A stretch of 13,738 nt of DNA from Phycisphaerae bacterium (lineage in GTDB: Bacteria > Planctomycetota > Phycisphaerae > Sedimentisphaerales > SG8-4): NCBI GenBank assembly GCA_030614945.1, contig JAUXAH010000021.1:1-13738 (forward strand), given 5' to 3'. Numbering within the stretch: position 1 is the stretch's first letter; each line of letters opens with the position of its first letter. Below are positions 5,794 through 12,671 of this stretch, one piece after another. The notes under the pieces were generated by a model, which was not told where the DNA came from, did not search any database, and saw only the letters and a program-made list of their open reading frames with translations. Both the position numbers and the translations under genes were made by a program.

Positions 5794-7707
5794 AAATGCT
5801 AAATCTATTTTTTTATCGGCAATTTTACGTTTTGCCATTCTTAAAAACTCGCCAATCTCCATTGTTCTGGTTTCTTTATCTCCTCGGATTCTTACGTTGA
5901 CGGTATTGGACCGGGACTCTTTCGGGCCGACTACCAACATACAGGGTAACTTTTGGCTATGTGCTCTGGCAATTTTAGCATTTATTTTTTCGTTCGATAG
6001 ATCGCAACTGTATCGCAATTGTGCGTCTTTGAGCTTATCTTCAATGATTTTGGCGTAATCATTGCTTTTTTCACTTATGGGCAGGATTCTTACCTGCTCG
6101 GGCGAAAGCCATAGAGGCAAATTGCCGCCATAGTGTTCTATAAGAATGCCGATAAAGCGCTCGAGAGAGCCCAGGACCGCTCTGTGAATCATAACCGGCG
6201 TTTTCTCGGTGTTGTCTCTGTCGGTATAAACCAGGCCGAAGCGCTCCGGCATCCAAAAATCCAGTTGAATTGTGCCGAGCTGCCAGGACCTTTTCAGGCA
6301 ATCCCTTATATGAAAATCTATTTTGGGCCCGTAAAATGCACCATCGCCCTCGTTGATTTTGTATTCAATTGTTTTGTGCCCGAGTGCGTTTTTGAGGGCA
6401 TTTGTGGCAACATCCCAAATCTCGTCCGAACCTATGTGCTTTTCGGGTTTGGTTGACAGCTCAATGCGGTAATCTTCGAACCCGAAGGCTTTATATATCT
6501 CGAAGGTAAGGCCAATGACCCCTATTATCTCGGACTCTATCTGCTCAGGGGTGCAGAAAATATGGGCATCGTCCTGGGTGAACTGCCTTACCCTGAAAAG
6601 CCCGTGCATAACGCCGCTGGCCTCGTGCCGATGCACCAGGCCAAGCTCGGCAACGCGCAGCGGAAATTCGCGATATGAATGCTGTCGGGTCTTATAAACC
6701 AAACATCCGCCGGGACAATTCATCGGCTTTATCGCATAGCTGGCGTCGTCAAAACTGGTAAAGTACATATTCTCTTTGTAATTGTCCCAATGGCCGCTCC
6801 TGTGCCACAGCTCTTCGTTGAGAATGATAGGTGTCTGGATTTCCTGGTAACCGTATTTATTGTGAACACCGCGCCAGAAGTCCACTATGGCGCTCCAGAT
6901 AATCATTCCTTTGGCGTGAATGAATGCGAAGCCCGGGCCGGCCTTGTTGAAACTAAATAAATCCAGCTGCCTGCCTAAGACCCTGTGGTCACGTTTTTTT
7001 GCCTCCTCCAATCTCTGCAGATAGTCGTCAAGGTCTTTTTGGGTTGGCCATGCGGTGCCATAGACGCGCTGGAGCATTTTTTGCGTTGGGTCACCGTGCC
7101 AATAAGCTCCGGCTACGGACATTATCTTAAAGCTTCCGACTCTACCTGTGCTGGGCAGATGCGGGCCCCGGCACAAATCCTCAAAGCCGTCTCCGTGCGA
7201 ATAGAAACTAATAATGTTACTGTCTGTGTGGCTTATATTATCGGTTTTATATTTGTCGCCGGCCAGTTTGTCCAGGGCCTCGGTTCGGGTCTTCTCTTTG
7301 CGAACAAATGGTTTGTCGGCCTTGATGATTTCGCGCATCTTTTTCTCTACGCGTTCGAAATCGTCCGGGCGAATCGGCTCATCAAGGTCAACGTCGTAGT
7401 AAAATCCGTCTTCAACGCTTGGGCCATAGACCAGCTTCGTATCCGGCCAGATACTGCATATCGCCTCGGCCATTATATGTGCGCAGCTATGCCGCATTAT
7501 TTCGAGGCCTTCGTCATCTTCGGGGGTGATGATTTGAACGGCGGCATCGCCATTTACAGGCGTGGATAAATCTACCAATTGCCCATTTATTCGCGCCGCT
7601 ACGGCCGCTTTTGCCAGTTCCGGCCCAATTTGCTCTGCCAATTGCTTTGCGGTTATGCCGTCAGCAGTTTCTAATGTGCTGCCATCCGGCAGTGTTACTT
7701 TTGCCAT
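5779..7707 (-). CDS. thrS: threonyl-tRNA synthetase
   Basis: ThrRS charges tRNA-Thr and hydrolyses mischarged Ser-tRNA-Thr. The ATG at 7705-7707 is chosen over a TTG seven codons upstream because MAKVTLPDG is the usual start and gives 642 residues, the same as E. coli. The TGS domain spans about 1-62. The editing domain has H73xxxH77 and C179RGPH183. Catalytic zinc ligands are C331, H382 and H508, each offset by 3 from the E. coli residues. Motif 2 has RHEASGVMHGLFRVRQFTQDD and motif 3 has HRAVLGSLERFIGIL; the anticodon domain follows from about 535. The leader from the predicted promoter is only about 56 bases, too short for a T-box. It is the first gene of the leftward cluster. Confidence 0.98.
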   Translation of the reverse strand: MAKVTLPDGSTLETADGITAKQLAEQIGPELAKAAVAARINGQLVDLSTPVNGDAAVQIITPEDDEGLEIMRHSCAHIMAEAICSIWPDTKLVYGPSVEDGFYYDVDLDEPIRPDDFERVEKKMREIIKADKPFVRKEKTRTEALDKLAGDKYKTDNISHTDSNIISFYSHGDGFEDLCRGPHLPSTGRVGSFKIMSVAGAYWHGDPTQKMLQRVYGTAWPTQKDLDDYLQRLEEAKKRDHRVLGRQLDLFSFNKAGPGFAFIHAKGMIIWSAIVDFWRGVHNKYGYQEIQTPIILNEELWHRSGHWDNYKENMYFTSFDDASYAIKPMNCPGGCLVYKTRQHSYREFPLRVAELGLVHRHEASGVMHGLFRVRQFTQDDAHIFCTPEQIESEIIGVIGLTFEIYKAFGFEDYRIELSTKPEKHIGSDEIWDVATNALKNALGHKTIEYKINEGDGAFYGPKIDFHIRDCLKRSWQLGTIQLDFWMPERFGLVYTDRDNTEKTPVMIHRAVLGSLERFIGILIEHYGGNLPLWLSPEQVRILPISEKSNDYAKIIEDKLKDAQLRYSCDLSNEKINAKIARAHSQKLPCMLVVGPKESRSNTVNVRIRGDKETRTMEIGEFLRMAKRKIADKKIDLAFEIDD

Positions 7708-7942: not shown

Positions 7943-8425
7943 ATGACGGATGTAAATTTGGTTCTGCTCAAAAAGAACAACTCACAGAAAGCATTCTCTC
8001 TGTCGAGCGGCATCACGGTGATTGGCCGGCGCCATGATTGCGATTTACGTATTTCCCTTATGTCGGTTTCCAGAAGGCACTGTCAGTTTAACCGTGACGA
8101 AGGGGTATTGAAAATTCGCGACCTCGGCTCACGTAACGGCACTTACGTCAACGGTAAGCGTATTGATGAAGCGGTGATTCGAGCAGGCGATTATATCGAA
8201 GTAGGCCCTCTAAAATTCGTACTTCAGATTGACGGAGAGCCCAAAGACATCGCCCAACCGCAGGTGCCCGCACAGGCCTTGCCGCAGGAGAAGCCGTCAA
8301 CGGGCGATTCAGCAGCCGATGACTTTGAGGCATTTGCAGACCTGGATGAGCTCGACTCATTAGAGGAGGGTTCCGCTTCATTACTGGAGGAGCTCGACTC
8401 ATTAGACGAAATTGGTCCTGCTTAA
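7943..8425 (+). CDS. FHA-domain protein with acidic C-terminal tail
   Basis: Forkhead-associated domains bind phosphothreonine peptides, usually in Ser/Thr-kinase signalling or secretion-system control. The 160 residues contain one FHA domain at about 5-97. Its key residues are present: G28R29, S43RRH46 and GSRNGTYVNG at 62-71 (phosphopeptide loop with S64 and N65). A Pro/Gln-rich linker (101-120) and an acidic tail follow. The tail repeats ELDSL at 136-140 and 150-154, encoded by two exact 17-bp copies. No signal peptide or membrane segment is seen, so it should be cytoplasmic. The ATG has a GAGG ribosome site 5 bases upstream. It stands alone, divergent from thrS. The specific partner is unknown; no kinase gene is in the window. 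Confidence 0.88.
   Translation: MTDVNLVLLKKNNSQKAFSLSSGITVIGRRHDCDLRISLMSVSRRHCQFNRDEGVLKIRDLGSRNGTYVNGKRIDEAVIRAGDYIEVGPLKFVLQIDGEPKDIAQPQVPAQALPQEKPSTGDSAADDFEAFADLDELDSLEEGSASLLEELDSLDEIGPA
8348..8406 (+). repeat. 17-bp direct repeat inside the FHA gene tail
   Basis: GAGCTCGACTCATTAGA occurs exactly at 8348-8364 and 8390-8406, 42 bp (14 codons) apart and in the same frame. It encodes the duplicated acidic ELDSL segment. Confidence 0.85.
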
Positions 8426-8813
8426 TCTGCTGCATCATTTTATAGACTTACCCCACCATTATTTCTAATTCTGTCTTCCGACCTCTGTTTTCCGTCTTCT
8501 GCTCTTGCACCTGATATGCTGCTGTCCTGATAACCTCCATCCTGATTTTCTGATCATCTGATAACCTAAGCAACAATTCTCTAATTCTCTAATCCACTAA
8601 AATTTATTTGCCTTTTCCCTTCTTTTCTGTTATTTTGTGCCCTTAATGATAACAGCACCTGTCAGATCAAGGCTGCCTCGAAAATAACTTAAAATAAATT
8701 GACCTAAACGCTATACGCTAAACGCTATCTTTTGTCCTGAGCGGAGTTGATGGATCTCAACCTTTATCACAGTATCTGCTTGCGACGTACTCTCCAGCGG
8801 CTTGTTACTCCTA
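8426..8813. other. gene-free gap with short degenerate tandem repeats
   Basis: No convincing gene or RNA is seen. From 8469 to 8503 five 7-mers lie in register (TTCTGTC, TTCCGAC, CTCTGTT, TTCCGTC, TTCTGCT). From 8527 CTGATAACC recurs within about 15-bp units. At 8575-8598 an 8-mer (AATTCTCT) is repeated. At 8704-8728 four 7-mers appear (CTAAACG, CTATACG, CTAAACG, then a partial unit). A short frame at 8747-8962 has no gene character. No clear terminator for either the FHA gene or the leftward operon was found. Confidence 0.7.
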
Positions 8814-9521
8814 TTAAGCCGAGTCAAGGCCCAGCGCGGCCTTTATGTTACCACGGATCCCTAATAGTAGTTTTCTTTTGGCAGCAGTTGCAAAATCCTC
8901 CCAGAGTTCGCGCCCAGAAGTGCATAGAAACAATTGGTGGACGATTTCCTCTCCGTCACTGAAAGATTTAACCACGATCGACAGTGTACTTTTGACGTGT
9001 TTCGTATCTGCCAGCGACTTGTGCTCTACCCACTTTCCGGGAATCTGCCCATGCACGATAGATGAAATCTTCTTGTACCATTCTTTGCAGTTACCCACTA
9101 GTCCAAATTGTTCCTGCGATTTACGAAAGTCCGCCGTATGCATCTTGTGATAGTCGAGCAAATCCTCCTTATATATGACAAACTTTGATTTGCGTGCTAA
9201 AGTTGCCAACTCGGAAGGATGTGTGCGAAAATATGTGTAGTAAAGAGCTGCTTCCAGCATCGTCCTCATAGCAGCTGCGGCTGGTTTATAAAGCGCCAAG
9301 CTGGTCAAGGCCACAACATGATGTCCTGAAACCTGCATCTCCCTTATGAAGGCAAGTGCAGGGTTACCTTTATCTGCGTTCTCGAACTGTTTAGCCCAAA
9401 TAGCCAATCGCAGATTACACTTTGCCATATTATCGCAAACGGATTTGTCCTTAAGGAACACAGATATGTTAGCATTCCAATCGACAGTCGAGAGGGCCGA
9501 TTTCAGCTTGTTATGGGGCAT
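8814..9521 (-). CDS. helical protein with HEPN/DUF5677-like features, third gene of the ParA operon
   Basis: Function not recognised. The 235-residue protein looks mostly helical and soluble, with no signal peptide. The centre (60-100) is an Ala/Leu-rich region ending in RTMLEAALYYTYF, with R86 and E90. At 148-158 is WYKKISSIVHG. An R...LE helix followed by a later S..VHG motif is the pattern of DUF5677-type helical proteins and resembles HEPN-fold proteins, some of which are RNases of defence and toxin-antitoxin systems. There is an R60-x6-H67, but not at the usual HEPN position, so nuclease activity is unproven. The ATG at 9519-9521 has GAGGT overlapping the previous gene's stop, and the gap is 12 bp. 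It therefore belongs to the ParA operon. Family assignment is tentative. Confidence 0.8.
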   Translation of the reverse strand: MPHNKLKSALSTVDWNANISVFLKDKSVCDNMAKCNLRLAIWAKQFENADKGNPALAFIREMQVSGHHVVALTSLALYKPAAAAMRTMLEAALYYTYFRTHPSELATLARKSKFVIYKEDLLDYHKMHTADFRKSQEQFGLVGNCKEWYKKISSIVHGQIPGKWVEHKSLADTKHVKSTLSIVVKSFSDGEEIVHQLFLCTSGRELWEDFATAAKRKLLLGIRGNIKAALGLDSA

Positions 9522-9533
9522 ACCAAGACTACC

Positions 9534-10010
9534 TCACCTTTTTCGCATGATACCTCTTAAGTAAGGATCGGAGGCACTGATTCCTTTATCGAGCCAATGA
9601 ATGAATTCAGAAACGGACCGTTCAGACGCACCCTTGAAGAAAGCATCCACCATTTCTCTCACTGTCCGCTTAGGTTGCCGAAAATAGTTTTTCATCTCCG
9701 GACACAAGGCTTTAAGAATCGGCACAATTTCTCTCTTGGGAATCCTCCTTTTATTAATGAGCAACATGGCTTTGTCGGAGGCACCACCGTGCCTTTCATA
9801 ATGGGGCATGAGGTGTTTTGTGTGACCCAAGTAGGTAGATGCATCTATTCTCATAAACACATCTTTAATCAAAAGACCGAGATGCTGTGAAAAGTCAGAG
9901 TCATTTACCAAGGCTTTTCCTATCTCCTGAATCTCGGTCATAGTCAGATCAGACCTCAAGAGCGACGATAAAATGATTCGCCTTGCACGTTCCCATGTTT
10001 TACTTTTCAT
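9534..10010 (-). CDS. unrecognised small helical protein, second gene of the ParA operon
   Basis: No family was recognised. The 158-residue protein is basic, with many Lys and Arg (TWERARRIILSSLLRS near the start and RGIMRKR at the end), and is predicted mostly helical. It has no membrane segment or signal peptide. A central HLMPHYERHGG (66-76) and KRRIPKREIVPILKAL (87-102) are the most distinctive parts. Small basic partners encoded next to ParA-type ATPases are often DNA-binding or adaptor proteins, so a centromere-binding or bridging role is possible, though no helix-turn-helix is clear. The ATG at 10008-10010 follows parA by 15 bp, with GAGGT 7 bases upstream. It is real by context: strong ribosome site, tight spacing and no competing frame. 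Confidence 0.82.
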   Translation of the reverse strand: MKSKTWERARRIILSSLLRSDLTMTEIQEIGKALVNDSDFSQHLGLLIKDVFMRIDASTYLGHTKHLMPHYERHGGASDKAMLLINKRRIPKREIVPILKALCPEMKNYFRQPKRTVREMVDAFFKGASERSVSEFIHWLDKGISASDPYLRGIMRKR

Positions 10011-10025
10011 GATATTACCTCAGAT

Positions 10026-10886
10026 TCAAATTCGATGAATAAATTCTTCTGCGACGGCACAAAGGTTATGGAAAGCGTATGTGCTCCACGGTTTACGGCT
10101 ATTCCATACAAAGCCCTTTCCCTCAAGCGGTTCGGAAAACACTCTATAGCGCTTCAATGTAGCGGTCATGCATAATTTAGCAAACTTTTGGTTAGATCGG
10201 ATTTCTCTTTCCTCCTTCGAAATTCCGATTCTGTTTGTTAAGTTAAATAGTACGTGCGGTGTCGGTGCATGGGTTCCTAGCCCTTTTGACTCAATGAACT
10301 GCATCATGAGCCCTATCCCTCGAACAGCATATCGTTGGGGAACCACCGGAATTATTACGTGGTCGGAATTCCTCAGAGATGTCTTTGTAAAAAGTGATCC
10401 CGCAGGGTGGCAATCAATAAAGATTATATCATATTTCTTTCGGCACTCTGCCATAAACTTTTCGAATCGTTCCTCGATTGGTTTGGTTCGCTTTAATGAC
10501 TGTCCAAGAACAATGTACATTAAGTCGAGTGTAGACGGTATAAGGTCTAGTTTAGTCCCATCAACAAAGCGGTATACCTTATGTGTTAAGTCTACAACCT
10601 TAGGAGGTATCTCATTCCCCGATACTTGAAGCCTAAACGGATCCAGATCTATTTCATTATCTTGTAAAATTGCCAGCGTAGTCTTTCGTTTCTTCTCTAT
10701 CTCAAAATACTTGTTTGCGGGAATAAAAGCTTGTGAGAGATTAAACTGTGGATCATAATCGAACAAGAGCACTTTTCTGCGCTTACCACCCACCTTGTAT
10801 CTCGCAATCAGGCCGCCAAGATGCATTGCCACGGTCGTCTTGCCCACTCCGCCTTTCATGTTCATTATTGTAACTACTGTCCCCAT
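10026..10886 (-). CDS. ParA/MinD-superfamily ATPase
   Basis: These P-loop ATPases dimerise on ATP and bind DNA or membrane to segregate plasmids, chromosomes or protein complexes. The 286-residue protein has the deviant Walker A MKGGVGKTT with K11 and K16, Walker A' as FDYDPQFNLSQAF with D43 and D45, and Walker B as IIFIDCHPAG at 154-163. The TSLRNSDHVIIPVVPQRYAVRGIG stretch that follows is typical of ParA. There is no N-terminal helix-turn-helix extension, so it resembles the short ParA type. A strong AAAGGAG lies 6 bases before the ATG. No parB-like gene is adjacent; the two downstream genes are of unknown families. It could serve in partitioning a mobile element or as the ATPase of a defence cassette. 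Confidence 0.93.
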   Translation of the reverse strand: MGTVVTIMNMKGGVGKTTVAMHLGGLIARYKVGGKRRKVLLFDYDPQFNLSQAFIPANKYFEIEKKRKTTLAILQDNEIDLDPFRLQVSGNEIPPKVVDLTHKVYRFVDGTKLDLIPSTLDLMYIVLGQSLKRTKPIEERFEKFMAECRKKYDIIFIDCHPAGSLFTKTSLRNSDHVIIPVVPQRYAVRGIGLMMQFIESKGLGTHAPTPHVLFNLTNRIGISKEEREIRSNQKFAKLCMTATLKRYRVFSEPLEGKGFVWNSRKPWSTYAFHNLCAVAEEFIHRI

Positions 10887-11092: not shown

Positions 11093-11443
11093 CTAGTCAA
11101 AAATATTGCATACCGGGCATTTCCAGTTCGTCCCATCAGGACGTGCCGGATGGACATCATTCCCTGGGGGATTGAAATCATGGTAGTTTTCGCATTCTTT
11201 TTCGAATGCCGCCTTTGCTGACGTTGCGTAGCTAAACTTGAAAAGAGGGCGTTTGGTTTTTCCTATCCAAGATTTGAGCCTGCCATTGACGTCAGAGTCA
11301 GCTCTCCCTACGTAGCCGACGAGAAAGCTCCCATCGGGATCTTTGCGGCCGAGGGCATAGTTGCCGGGAGCCTTCTTTGTGACTTTGGCGTCAATAGTGT
11401 CTCTGTCAAGTTTATATGGTCCATTCATACCTAGCGAAGCCAT
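11093..11443 (-). CDS. GIY-YIG-like small protein with C-terminal CPxC
   Basis: GIY-YIG proteins are single-domain nucleases in homing, repair, restriction and mobile elements. The start chosen is the ATG at 11441-11443, preceded by a near-perfect AAAGGAGG. A longer frame from 11470 has no such site. The 116 residues show PGNYALG (26-32) matching the GxY strand, GYVGRADSDVNGRLKSW (43-59) matching the YIG motif plus the conserved Arg R55, and FEKECENYHDF (80-90) offering the catalytic Glu. The tail DVHPARPDGTNWKCPVC ends in a CPxC (109-112) that may bind metal with H98. Spacing fits the superfamily, though the loops are short. It lies 107 bp downstream of the 98-residue gene and 206 bp upstream of parA, all in the same direction. 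Nuclease activity is inference. Confidence 0.8.
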   Translation of the reverse strand: MASLGMNGPYKLDRDTIDAKVTKKAPGNYALGRKDPDGSFLVGYVGRADSDVNGRLKSWIGKTKRPLFKFSYATSAKAAFEKECENYHDFNPPGNDVHPARPDGTNWKCPVCNIFD

Positions 11444-11506
11444 TGTATCCTCCTTTCGGTATTCAACCATTAATTAATTGTTTCCGTATAATGCCAAGCT
11501 CACCGG

Positions 11507-11550: not shown

Positions 11551-11847
11551 CTACTTCTTACGCGTTGATCGCTTGATGATATTCCCTTGGTTGTCCATCA
11601 CACCTATGGTTGTGTTCTTGGTAATTTCAATTGCTTTTTGAACCGCTCCGGCATTGGTACCTGCGATATAAGCAGGACCCTTATGGCCTCTTAATTGTCC
11701 AGGTGCATCCTTTACAGTATTCGGGCCTTCTACCTCCACTGTTGCTCTCGTAGATTTAATGTCTACCCCTTTACCGTTGTTGTAATCAGTATTGTACTTT
11801 TTGGCAATTCGGTTTGATGTTGCTTTGTGTGATTTACTTTCAGACAT
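11551..11847 (-). CDS. small unrecognised protein with weak restriction-endonuclease-like features
   Basis: No family is recognised with confidence. The 98-residue protein is basic at both ends. It has a KGVDIKSTRATVEVEG stretch (26-41), then HKGPAYIAGTN (55-65), an Ala-rich helix and IGVMDNQGNIIK (81-92), suggesting an alpha/beta fold. An acidic D29 followed by a strand carrying E38xE40 resembles the D...(D/E)xK arrangement of restriction-like nucleases, but the final Lys is replaced by Glu, so this is weak. The ATG at 11845-11847 has AAAAGGAG 7 bases upstream, and a good promoter lies at 12008-12035. It is the first gene of the accessory block and points toward the GIY-YIG-like and ParA genes. 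Its context suggests mobile or defence DNA. Confidence 0.72.
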   Translation of the reverse strand: MSESKSHKATSNRIAKKYNTDYNNGKGVDIKSTRATVEVEGPNTVKDAPGQLRGHKGPAYIAGTNAGAVQKAIEITKNTTIGVMDNQGNIIKRSTRKK

Positions 11848-12129: not shown

Positions 12130-12404
12130 TTTTTGTCCCTTTTGTGCATTTTGTCCCTTTTCGTGGCTATATTTCTCTGTGTTCTCTGTGTCCTCTGTGG
12201 CTGTTTTTCTTCGTGCCCTTCGCGTCCTTCGTGGTGAAAACCCCGTGAAATCAGTGAAATCTGTGGCCAATTTTTTTGTGCCTTTTCGTGGCTAAACAAA
12301 ATCCGCGTTAATCCGTGTTAATCCGTGGTTAATAAAAAAAGATAAAATCTCTGCGTTCTCTGTGCCTAATTCTTATCCTGAAATCTGTGAAATCTGTGGC
12401 TAAT
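12130..12404. repeat. array of 9-10-bp repeat phrases
   Basis: Each phrase is two to three copies of a 9-10-bp unit. Read on the bottom strand, most begin CCAC. CACAGAGRA units give 12175-12200; CRCGAAGGR units give 12209-12234; CACNGATTT units give 12245-12266 and 12379-12404; ATTAAYRCGG units give 12301-12333; and a CACAGAG-like phrase lies at about 12349-12366. An 18-bp unit starting TTTTGTCCCTTTT is repeated at about 12132 and 12150. A bottom-strand open frame across 12039-12299 is produced by these repeats and is not called as a gene. Confidence 0.8.
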
Positions 12405-12573
12405 TTTCAATCAAATCTGCAGGTAGTTGTCAACAAAAATCGAAAAATCGAAAAATTTTTTATCTCCTTTTCTCACAACGAGTTAATCCTGTTTATCCCG
12501 TCAAAAACACCCCAATTTTCGACTCAAACGCGCACATTCGCCCAATTATAGAGGCGCGTTGTTTTACCGCCGA
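12405..12573. other. gene-free AT-rich spacer
   Basis: No gene is seen. It holds a duplicated AAAAATCG-type stretch near 12435 and a 7-bp inverted repeat AACGCGC/GCGCGTT (12527-12533 and 12554-12560) followed by GTTTT. Confidence 0.55.
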
Positions 12574-12671
12574 GAACTATGAACCACGAACCACGAACCA
12601 CGAACTACGAACTACGAACCACGAACTATGAACAACGAACTATGAACTACAAACTACCAACTACAAGCTAC
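12574..12671. repeat. fourteen-unit 7-bp tandem repeat (GAACYAC)
   Basis: From GAACTAT at 12574 the sequence runs as 14 consecutive 7-mers close to GAACYAC, with no slip in register and decay only toward the right end (AAACTAC, CAACTAC, AAGCTAC). The open frame starting at 12579 only reflects the 21-bp superperiod and is not called as a gene. Confidence 0.9.

Follow-up and report, generated by a model that had tools for sequence, protein, structure and literature searches.

We analysed a 13,738-nucleotide (nt) stretch of DNA from a Phycisphaerae bacterium (contig JAUXAH010000021.1 of assembly GCA_030614945.1; hereafter the window) and focus on three adjacent genes in it, here called A, B and C. 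Our results favour a model in which this trio is a horizontally mobile immunity or toxin–antitoxin (TA) module, with C as the effector, the ParA-type ATPase A as its switch and B as a fast-evolving partner, and in which C would act upon release. We put the probability of this model at roughly 0.55; in the broader sense of an undescribed immunity or TA module, the assignment is probably correct. The model starts from the three-gene unit itself, the correlated divergence of its members, the predicted fold and the conserved residues of C, and the setting of the trio at sites where sister genomes carry other genes (swap sites).

Using a profile of C and ignoring ParA, we found 17 loci in a genome collection and two in a viral collection; these 19 loci comprise 18 distinct ones, as one viral contig repeats the trio of genome locus L011. 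An A homologue (59–68% identical) lies directly upstream in all 19, and in each a B-sized open reading frame (ORF) sits between A and C. Because only C was searched for, this co-occurrence is not biased towards ParA, and it supports A–B–C as an obligate three-gene unit in all loci examined. Far from occurring mostly without ParA, a possibility raised in an initial annotation of the window, B and C have it beside them in every locus. The gaps or overlaps between the genes range from −14 to +26 nt (start codons chosen by hand). Averaged over all pairs of 19 tips (the window plus 18 loci), sequence identity is 63% in A, 27% in B and 50% in C. Distances in the three genes correlate with one another (r = 0.86, 0.82 and 0.77), pointing to a single unit whose middle gene evolves fast. 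In the window, the trio is a tight minus-strand operon with intergenic gaps of 15 and 12 nt, and the positions, lengths (286, 158 and 235 amino acids, aa) and spacing given by the initial annotation match exactly. The strong ribosome sites that it described are visible as purine-rich motifs at all three genes (AGGAG 5' of A, GAGG 5' of B and GGTGAGG 5' of C), but those of B and C are moderate rather than strong. The trio is not a chance arrangement, because C has 242 homologues, nearly all of those listed being of similar length, and the A–B–C order recurs in all 19 loci that the searches with C recovered.

By record names, Alphaproteobacteria account for 13 of the 17 genome records, and the other carriers are Desulfobacterales, Thiomargarita, Janthinobacterium and Methylovorus; a Corallococcus protein is also among the C homologues. 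The trio is single-copy in each of the 17 genomes. Across 397 genomes of one order, C reached its full score in three and a weak relative was present in a fourth, while an A profile (E ≤ 1e-40) recovered the same three (>500 bits) and one match at 163 bits, which belongs to a distant triad described below; for each genome, these order-wide searches scored no more than its top six or seven candidates. Within the class of L011, the C profile found a single genome among 369, that of L011 itself.

Among the C homologues (242 at E ≤ 1e-3), 119 of the 120 in the matches listed are 231–242 aa long, and 29 of these 120 were used to build the profile. In a further alignment of 15 sequences, which takes in two cousins at 19–20% identity, W42, R86, E90, H101, E104, Y149, S153 and H157 are invariant; the R..LE and SS.VHG motifs picked out in the initial annotation are the conserved ones. 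The AlphaFold2 (AF2) model of C is all-helical and confident (predicted local distance difference test score, pLDDT, 93.4; predicted template-modelling score, pTM, 0.91). When structures were ranked with a second aligner, HEPN domains came out on top (sacsin 9.5, AF_0298 9.4, TT1696 9.4 and 4nqf 8.1), with matches spanning residues 48–208, although the aligner itself cautions that helical models can score this high by chance. The HEPN-like fold proposed earlier for C is thereby favoured, but by a modest margin. Pfam HEPN models gave no match to C at E ≤ 1, and a viral structure library gave none to its model at E ≤ 0.001. In the model, the core helices would be residues 56–74, 78–98, 141–156 and 177–200, with H157 directly following the third and H101 in the insert between the second and third. 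The suggested link to DUF5677 is borne out by motifs in register (R-x3-[E/D] and Y-x7-H) but is weak by Pfam, where C scores 16.5 bits against PF18928, under the gathering cut-off of 27.1. Among 14 Pfam-DUF5677 proteins sampled, R and H are present in all and Y in 13, with a Y-x7-H spacing identical to that of C, and S or C occupies the position equivalent to S153 in 13. Aligning the C profile with this set by hhalign gave a probability of 7.6%, and with the cousins added a still weak 34% (E 4e-4) with both motifs in register. On these sequence comparisons, C probably works like DUF5677 proteins and descends with them.

Gene A carries the features that define the ParA ATPase family, namely the deviant Walker A with its signature Lys, Walker A' and Walker B, and the intact Walker motifs reported earlier (KGGVGKTT, DYDPQ and IDCHPAG) hold up over 18 sequences, the window counted in. 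Gene B matches no Pfam, NCBIfam or PADLOC family. Its model (pLDDT 78.5, pTM 0.46) has a low-confidence linker (residues 59–74) between two helical blocks, and comparison with the PDB gave 37 matches, the best at E 2.2 and none useful. B has five close relatives besides the window's own; a profile search returned 17 others beyond the window's, several of them profile members already. BLASTP (E ≤ 1e-3) recognised B in 13 of the 19 loci, and the remaining six assignments rest on position, a shared N-terminal helix and a DPYLxGI-type tail. Across 24 sequences R11, D148, L151 and G153 are unchanged, and the ratio of nonsynonymous to synonymous substitution rates of B is 0.10 in one close pair (L013/L014). 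Its relatives and this ratio mark B as a real gene. Known ParA activators work through an N-terminal basic helix in which an Arg or Lys is essential, and because the basic helix of B with its invariant Arg resembles theirs, we propose that the B N-terminus may contact A.

Table 1. Positions of the trio, its motifs and other small genes in the window (residue numbers are those of each protein)
Feature	Position	Strand	Remarks
Gene A, ParA/Soj-type ATPase, 286 aa	10026-10886	-	Pfam AAA_31, E=8.5e-31; PHROG 164 ParA-like, 4e-36
A, deviant Walker A KGGVGKTT, signature Lys11 and Lys16	10833-10856	-	Invariant, 18 sequences
A, Walker A' DYDPQ, residues 43-47	10746-10760	-	Invariant, 18 sequences
A, Walker B IDCHP, residues 157-161 (part of IDCHPAG)	10404-10418	-	Invariant, 18 sequences
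Gene B, basic two-block helical protein, 158 aa	9534-10010	-	Proposed adaptor/ATPase partner; B-position ORF in 19/19 loci
B, N-terminal basic helix, residues 3-19, Arg11	9954-10004	-	Arg11 invariant
B, C-terminal motif DPYLRGI, residues 148-154	9549-9569	-	D148, L151, G153 invariant
Gene C, HEPN-like, DUF5677-like, 235 aa	8814-9521	-	Proposed effector
C, R86..E90 (RxxxE), core helix 2	9252-9266	-	Invariant in 29- and 15-sequence alignments
C, H101..E104, insert after helix 2	9210-9221	-	Invariant in both alignments
C, Y149-x3-S153-x3-H157, end of helix 3	9051-9077	-	Invariant; Y-x7-H spacing as in DUF5677 set
FHA-domain protein	7943-8425		Between thrS-side gene block and trio
125-aa ORF	11093-11470	-	No Pfam/NCBIfam family; short GIY-YIG-like by reading; weak PADLOC PDC-S14 match, E 0.01
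98-aa ORF	11551-11847	-	No Pfam, NCBIfam or PADLOC family

The genomic setting of the trio was clearest at L007, a Tardiphaga robiniae record, where the flanks are common to 18 genomes of the genus and the trio is not. In the 10 of 17 sister genomes examined, sequence shared on the left ends at 6525–6528 (L047–L051, L055 and L056) or 6539 (L054) and resumes on the right at 8755–8792 (L047–L050, L052 and L054) or only at 9387–9396 (L051, L053, L055 and L056); in L007, the only genes recognised in the inserted piece are those of the trio. With both edges shared, the same site carries a KAP nucleoside triphosphatase matching PifA in L048 (1e-99), an AIPR protein matching AbiU in L054 (1e-35) and PDC-S14 in L047 (2e-77); with the left edge shared, it carries a SMODS cyclase of the CBASS type with 2TM effectors in L056 (3e-104) and the candidate pair PDC-M41A/B in L051 (5e-74 and 2e-106). 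Strong PADLOC matches thus occur in five of the ten sisters, a count that has no random-site baseline. Some 380 bp to the left of this site (L007 6148–6526) are repeated at other places in several genomes of the genus, with about 84% identity; because this repeat ends at the cassette edge, it may mark the insertion site. In Rhizobium sp. FKL33 (L016), the left flank shared with sister loci likewise stops at 6336 in four of the five examined and at 6329 in the fifth, and the inserted piece holds the trio only. In place of the trio, one sister (L057) has a low-GC gene that matches neither PADLOC nor Pfam; three (L059–L061) have just a short segment there, and the right flank of L058 did not turn up in the stretch examined. 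Elsewhere, the trio neighbours SspB, SspC and a PtuA-like ATPase (L001), or a type II methylase, a weak restriction endonuclease match and a helicase matching ZorD/DpdE (L011). The candidate defence role raised by the initial annotation is in keeping with the setting at the L007 swap site and in L001 and L011, and the setting fits immunity better than partition.

From here we infer who binds whom, the trigger, the substrate and the defence role. In the immunity model, the effector would be C, as a HEPN-like member of the DUF5677 lineage whose conserved polar site is non-canonical, and A would be an active ParA-type ATPase serving as an ATP-driven switch. B would be a dedicated, variable coupling partner that contacts A through its N-terminal half and holds C through its C-terminal half, which carries the DPYLxGI tail. 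As long as a cell is uninfected, ATP-bound A together with B would keep C in an inactive state, distribute it across the nucleoid, or both. Infection, sensed through foreign DNA, damage to the nucleoid or an assault on A or B, would release or activate C, and the freed C would halt growth, most likely via RNA or a nucleotide, in a defence of the abortive-infection type.

The closest precedent is the dyad of a ParA gene and a MAE_18760-family HEPN gene, which excerpts of Anantharaman et al. (2013; PMC3710099) predict and in which the ATPase is proposed as the antitoxin. This dyad, a prediction in that source, places a ParA/Soj-like ATPase gene in an operon with a HEPN gene, and in the trio a ParA gene shares its operon with C, for which a HEPN fold is favoured rather than proven; the trio differs in having three genes rather than two, B being the extra one. 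The MAE_18760 family keeps the Rx4-6H motif (Table 1 of PMC3710099), whereas C does not conserve it, and C is set apart from that family by Pfam (E ≤ 1) as well as by this motif. According to the same excerpts, Rx4-6H lies in the C-terminal part of HEPN helix 3 and is not kept by all HEPN families, those without it probably binding RNA with no cleavage; a subset of MNT-HEPN proteins keeps it, while AbiV and AF_0298-like HEPN proteins use an alternative His from an insert between helices 2 and 3 (PMC3710099), the same region as H101 of C, a likeness by position only. MNT-HEPN (HpeT) TA systems are unlike the trio in having a nucleotidyltransferase as regulator and two genes. To our knowledge, AbiV and AF_0298-like HEPN-T proteins have no ParA or B partner. 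The A–B–C triad is unnamed in the literature searched, which covered titles and the starts of abstracts and left most subscription papers and preprints outside.

The strongest competitor of the immunity model, if clearly the less probable of the two, is a plain addiction module, in which C is a toxin, A and B together are the antitoxin, and the trio is kept since its loss is lethal. The tight, partly overlapping genes would suit such a module, and so would the mobile-element genes near some copies (two integrase matches in neighbouring ORFs) and the TA reading that excerpts of PMC3710099 print for the ParA/Soj–HEPN operon. Defence genes in half of the L007-site sisters examined argue against it, as do the trio-only pieces inserted in L007 and L016, where addiction would benefit the host little. 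An antitoxin is as a rule a single small, unstable protein, whereas in the trio two genes would share that role.

A role in segregation or positioning, with A and B partitioning a mobile element (B as centromere binder) or placing C as nucleoid cargo, is improbable. A is indeed closest to ParA partition ATPases, and B, with its basic helix and flexible linker, looks adaptor-like, so that the trio shares with ParA/ParB or ParA/small-adaptor systems an A-type ATPase and a basic helical partner. Yet the trio adds C, forms trio-only pieces at two chromosomal sites, shows no centromere-like array in the regions examined and has no close match in PLSDB: C gave no tblastn match among 72,556 plasmids, and the best 15 listed plasmid matches of A are only 25–30% identical. 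Direct repeats upstream of A reach at most two copies, with no iteron array in eight regions (the window and seven loci); L002 has AT-rich inverted repeats there. Carriage on plasmids, a mark of ParA partition, was therefore not found for the trio, and we rejected plasmid partition, which the initial annotation already held less likely, as the main explanation; such a role is unlikely. Phage origin was rejected as well, as neither C (tblastn) nor its cousins in L031 and L065 matched any of 50,697 phages; the cousins also had no match among the 72,556 plasmids and no relative on viral contigs, and in IMG/VR, C was found on two contigs only, the same two being recovered with A. Family tallies were made for 132 neighbouring ORFs (25 of 83 Pfam and 25 of 219 PADLOC families listed), and the Pfam list has two matches to phage integrases and one each to VirB8 and DUF3363, assigned to individual ORFs from their translations; these ORFs were called mechanically, with many false in GC-rich DNA, and the tallies, made without a control, were not used for enrichment. 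Integration at tRNA ends as a rule was also rejected, three of 18 loci (L003, L009 and L010) having a tRNA no more than 2 kb away from the trio.

Searches with the C and A profiles uncovered three further triads of ParA, a small protein and C (L031, L093 and L065/L092), and the B proteins of L031 and L093 are related (35% identical). The C profile scores L065 at 28 and L031 at 23 bits and the A profile at 163 and 73 bits, the last being a level that an ordinary ParA might reach. A profile extended with L031 and L065 hit five of 229 genomes: two carry the main family, two carry triads (L065's own and the new L093), and the fifth is that of L094. In the class of L011 it hit one of 274, again L011's own. 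In L094 (238–2804), a C-like gene lies between a GIY-YIG-like ORF with no Pfam match and an ORC-CDC6-like ATPase that is not ParA, possibly a different ATPase–effector pairing. Two cousins score 25.5 and 23.3 bits with Pfam DUF5677, and L065 and L094 have no match. Unlike the trio, canonical Pfam-DUF5677 genes had no adjacent ParA in 22 loci sampled (most with about 1.5 kb on each side), and ParA linkage of all DUF5677 genes was rejected. The divergent cousin triads and the DUF5677 loci without ParA suggest that the A–B–C layout is older than the main family; within our sample, this layout goes with the main family and its cousins. Beside the divergent triad of L031 lies a CI/LexA-type repressor-like ORF (134–931) with no Pfam match at 1e-4.

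Several results weigh against C as the effector of an immunity module. Shared descent alone would also correlate the distances of A, B and C, PADLOC 2.0.0 models matched none of the three proteins at E ≤ 1, and ParA was missing beside the DUF5677 genes just described. A designed bundle ties the fourth HEPN match of C at 8.1, these HEPN Z scores are middling for a helical protein, and Foldseek found no match to C in the PDB at E ≤ 0.001. C may not be an RNase, because Rx4-6H is not conserved: Arg stands at that spacing (at 150 or 151, with no fixed position) in 11 of 29 aligned C proteins and in 42 of the 113 listed that bear the HGQxPG motif, Lys or Arg stands at 150/151 in 18 of 29, and the window's C has Lys150-Lys151-Ile152 ahead of H157. 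RNA cleavage, as implied by the RNA-targeting effector of the initial annotation, finds no support here, the window having Lys where 11 of 29 relatives have Arg, and the DNA-patrolling role that the annotation gave to A stays a proposal. At the L007 site, four of the ten sisters lack a strong PADLOC match, with none in L049 and L050 and weak ones in L052 (DpdF, 8e-6) and L055 (ZorA, 9e-4), and the 850-bp stretch of L053 had no gene scanned. The least probable of the alternatives, a non-defence regulatory or metabolic module in which C binds a nucleotide or RNA without cleavage at merely permissive sites, could draw on such ordinary genes (sensor kinase-like ORFs in L049 and L052, with no strong PADLOC match) and on the statement in excerpts of PMC3710099 that HEPN proteins without Rx4-6H probably only bind RNA, and is countered by the sporadic spread of single copies across phyla and by the defence genes in half of the sisters examined.

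Names read off translations give the window a chromosomal look (rfb-type sugar genes, pheS, rplT, rpmI, infC and thrS on the minus strand), and no tRNA was found in it. PDC-S14, the weak match of the 125-aa ORF, is the candidate family that also occupies the L007 swap site in L047. Past the small genes, imperfect direct repeats and low-complexity GTTCGTAGTTCGT-type repeats occupy 12149–12407 and about 12580–12670. Around other copies, the start of the same methyltransferase-like ORF flanks the trio on both sides in L001 (6111–6536 and 9334–9927), as if duplicated on insertion, and large HATPase_c_3 (GHKL-type) proteins lie less than 5 kb from the trio in L014 (12796–14841) and L015 (8820–10673).

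The trio would extend the ParA–HEPN operons, so far only predicted in the literature read, and there is a fair chance that it is a new defence system. More tentatively, it might represent a new immunity class, with a nucleoid-binding ParA and a fast-evolving adaptor serving as sensor and safety catch for an effector that has a HEPN fold and an active site of a new type (R..E / H..E / Y-x3-S-x3-H), in at least three deeply divergent subfamilies. The trio gives DUF5677-type proteins, a domain named by a single paper in the full texts searched, an address. Because it is small, self-contained, spread across several phyla and present in named hosts, the idea is directly testable. The known roles of ParA ATPases lie in moving or partitioning cargo such as DNA, and switching an immune or toxic effector would, if true, be a new use of them, one that excerpts of PMC3710099 foresee only as a prediction for the two-gene dyad.

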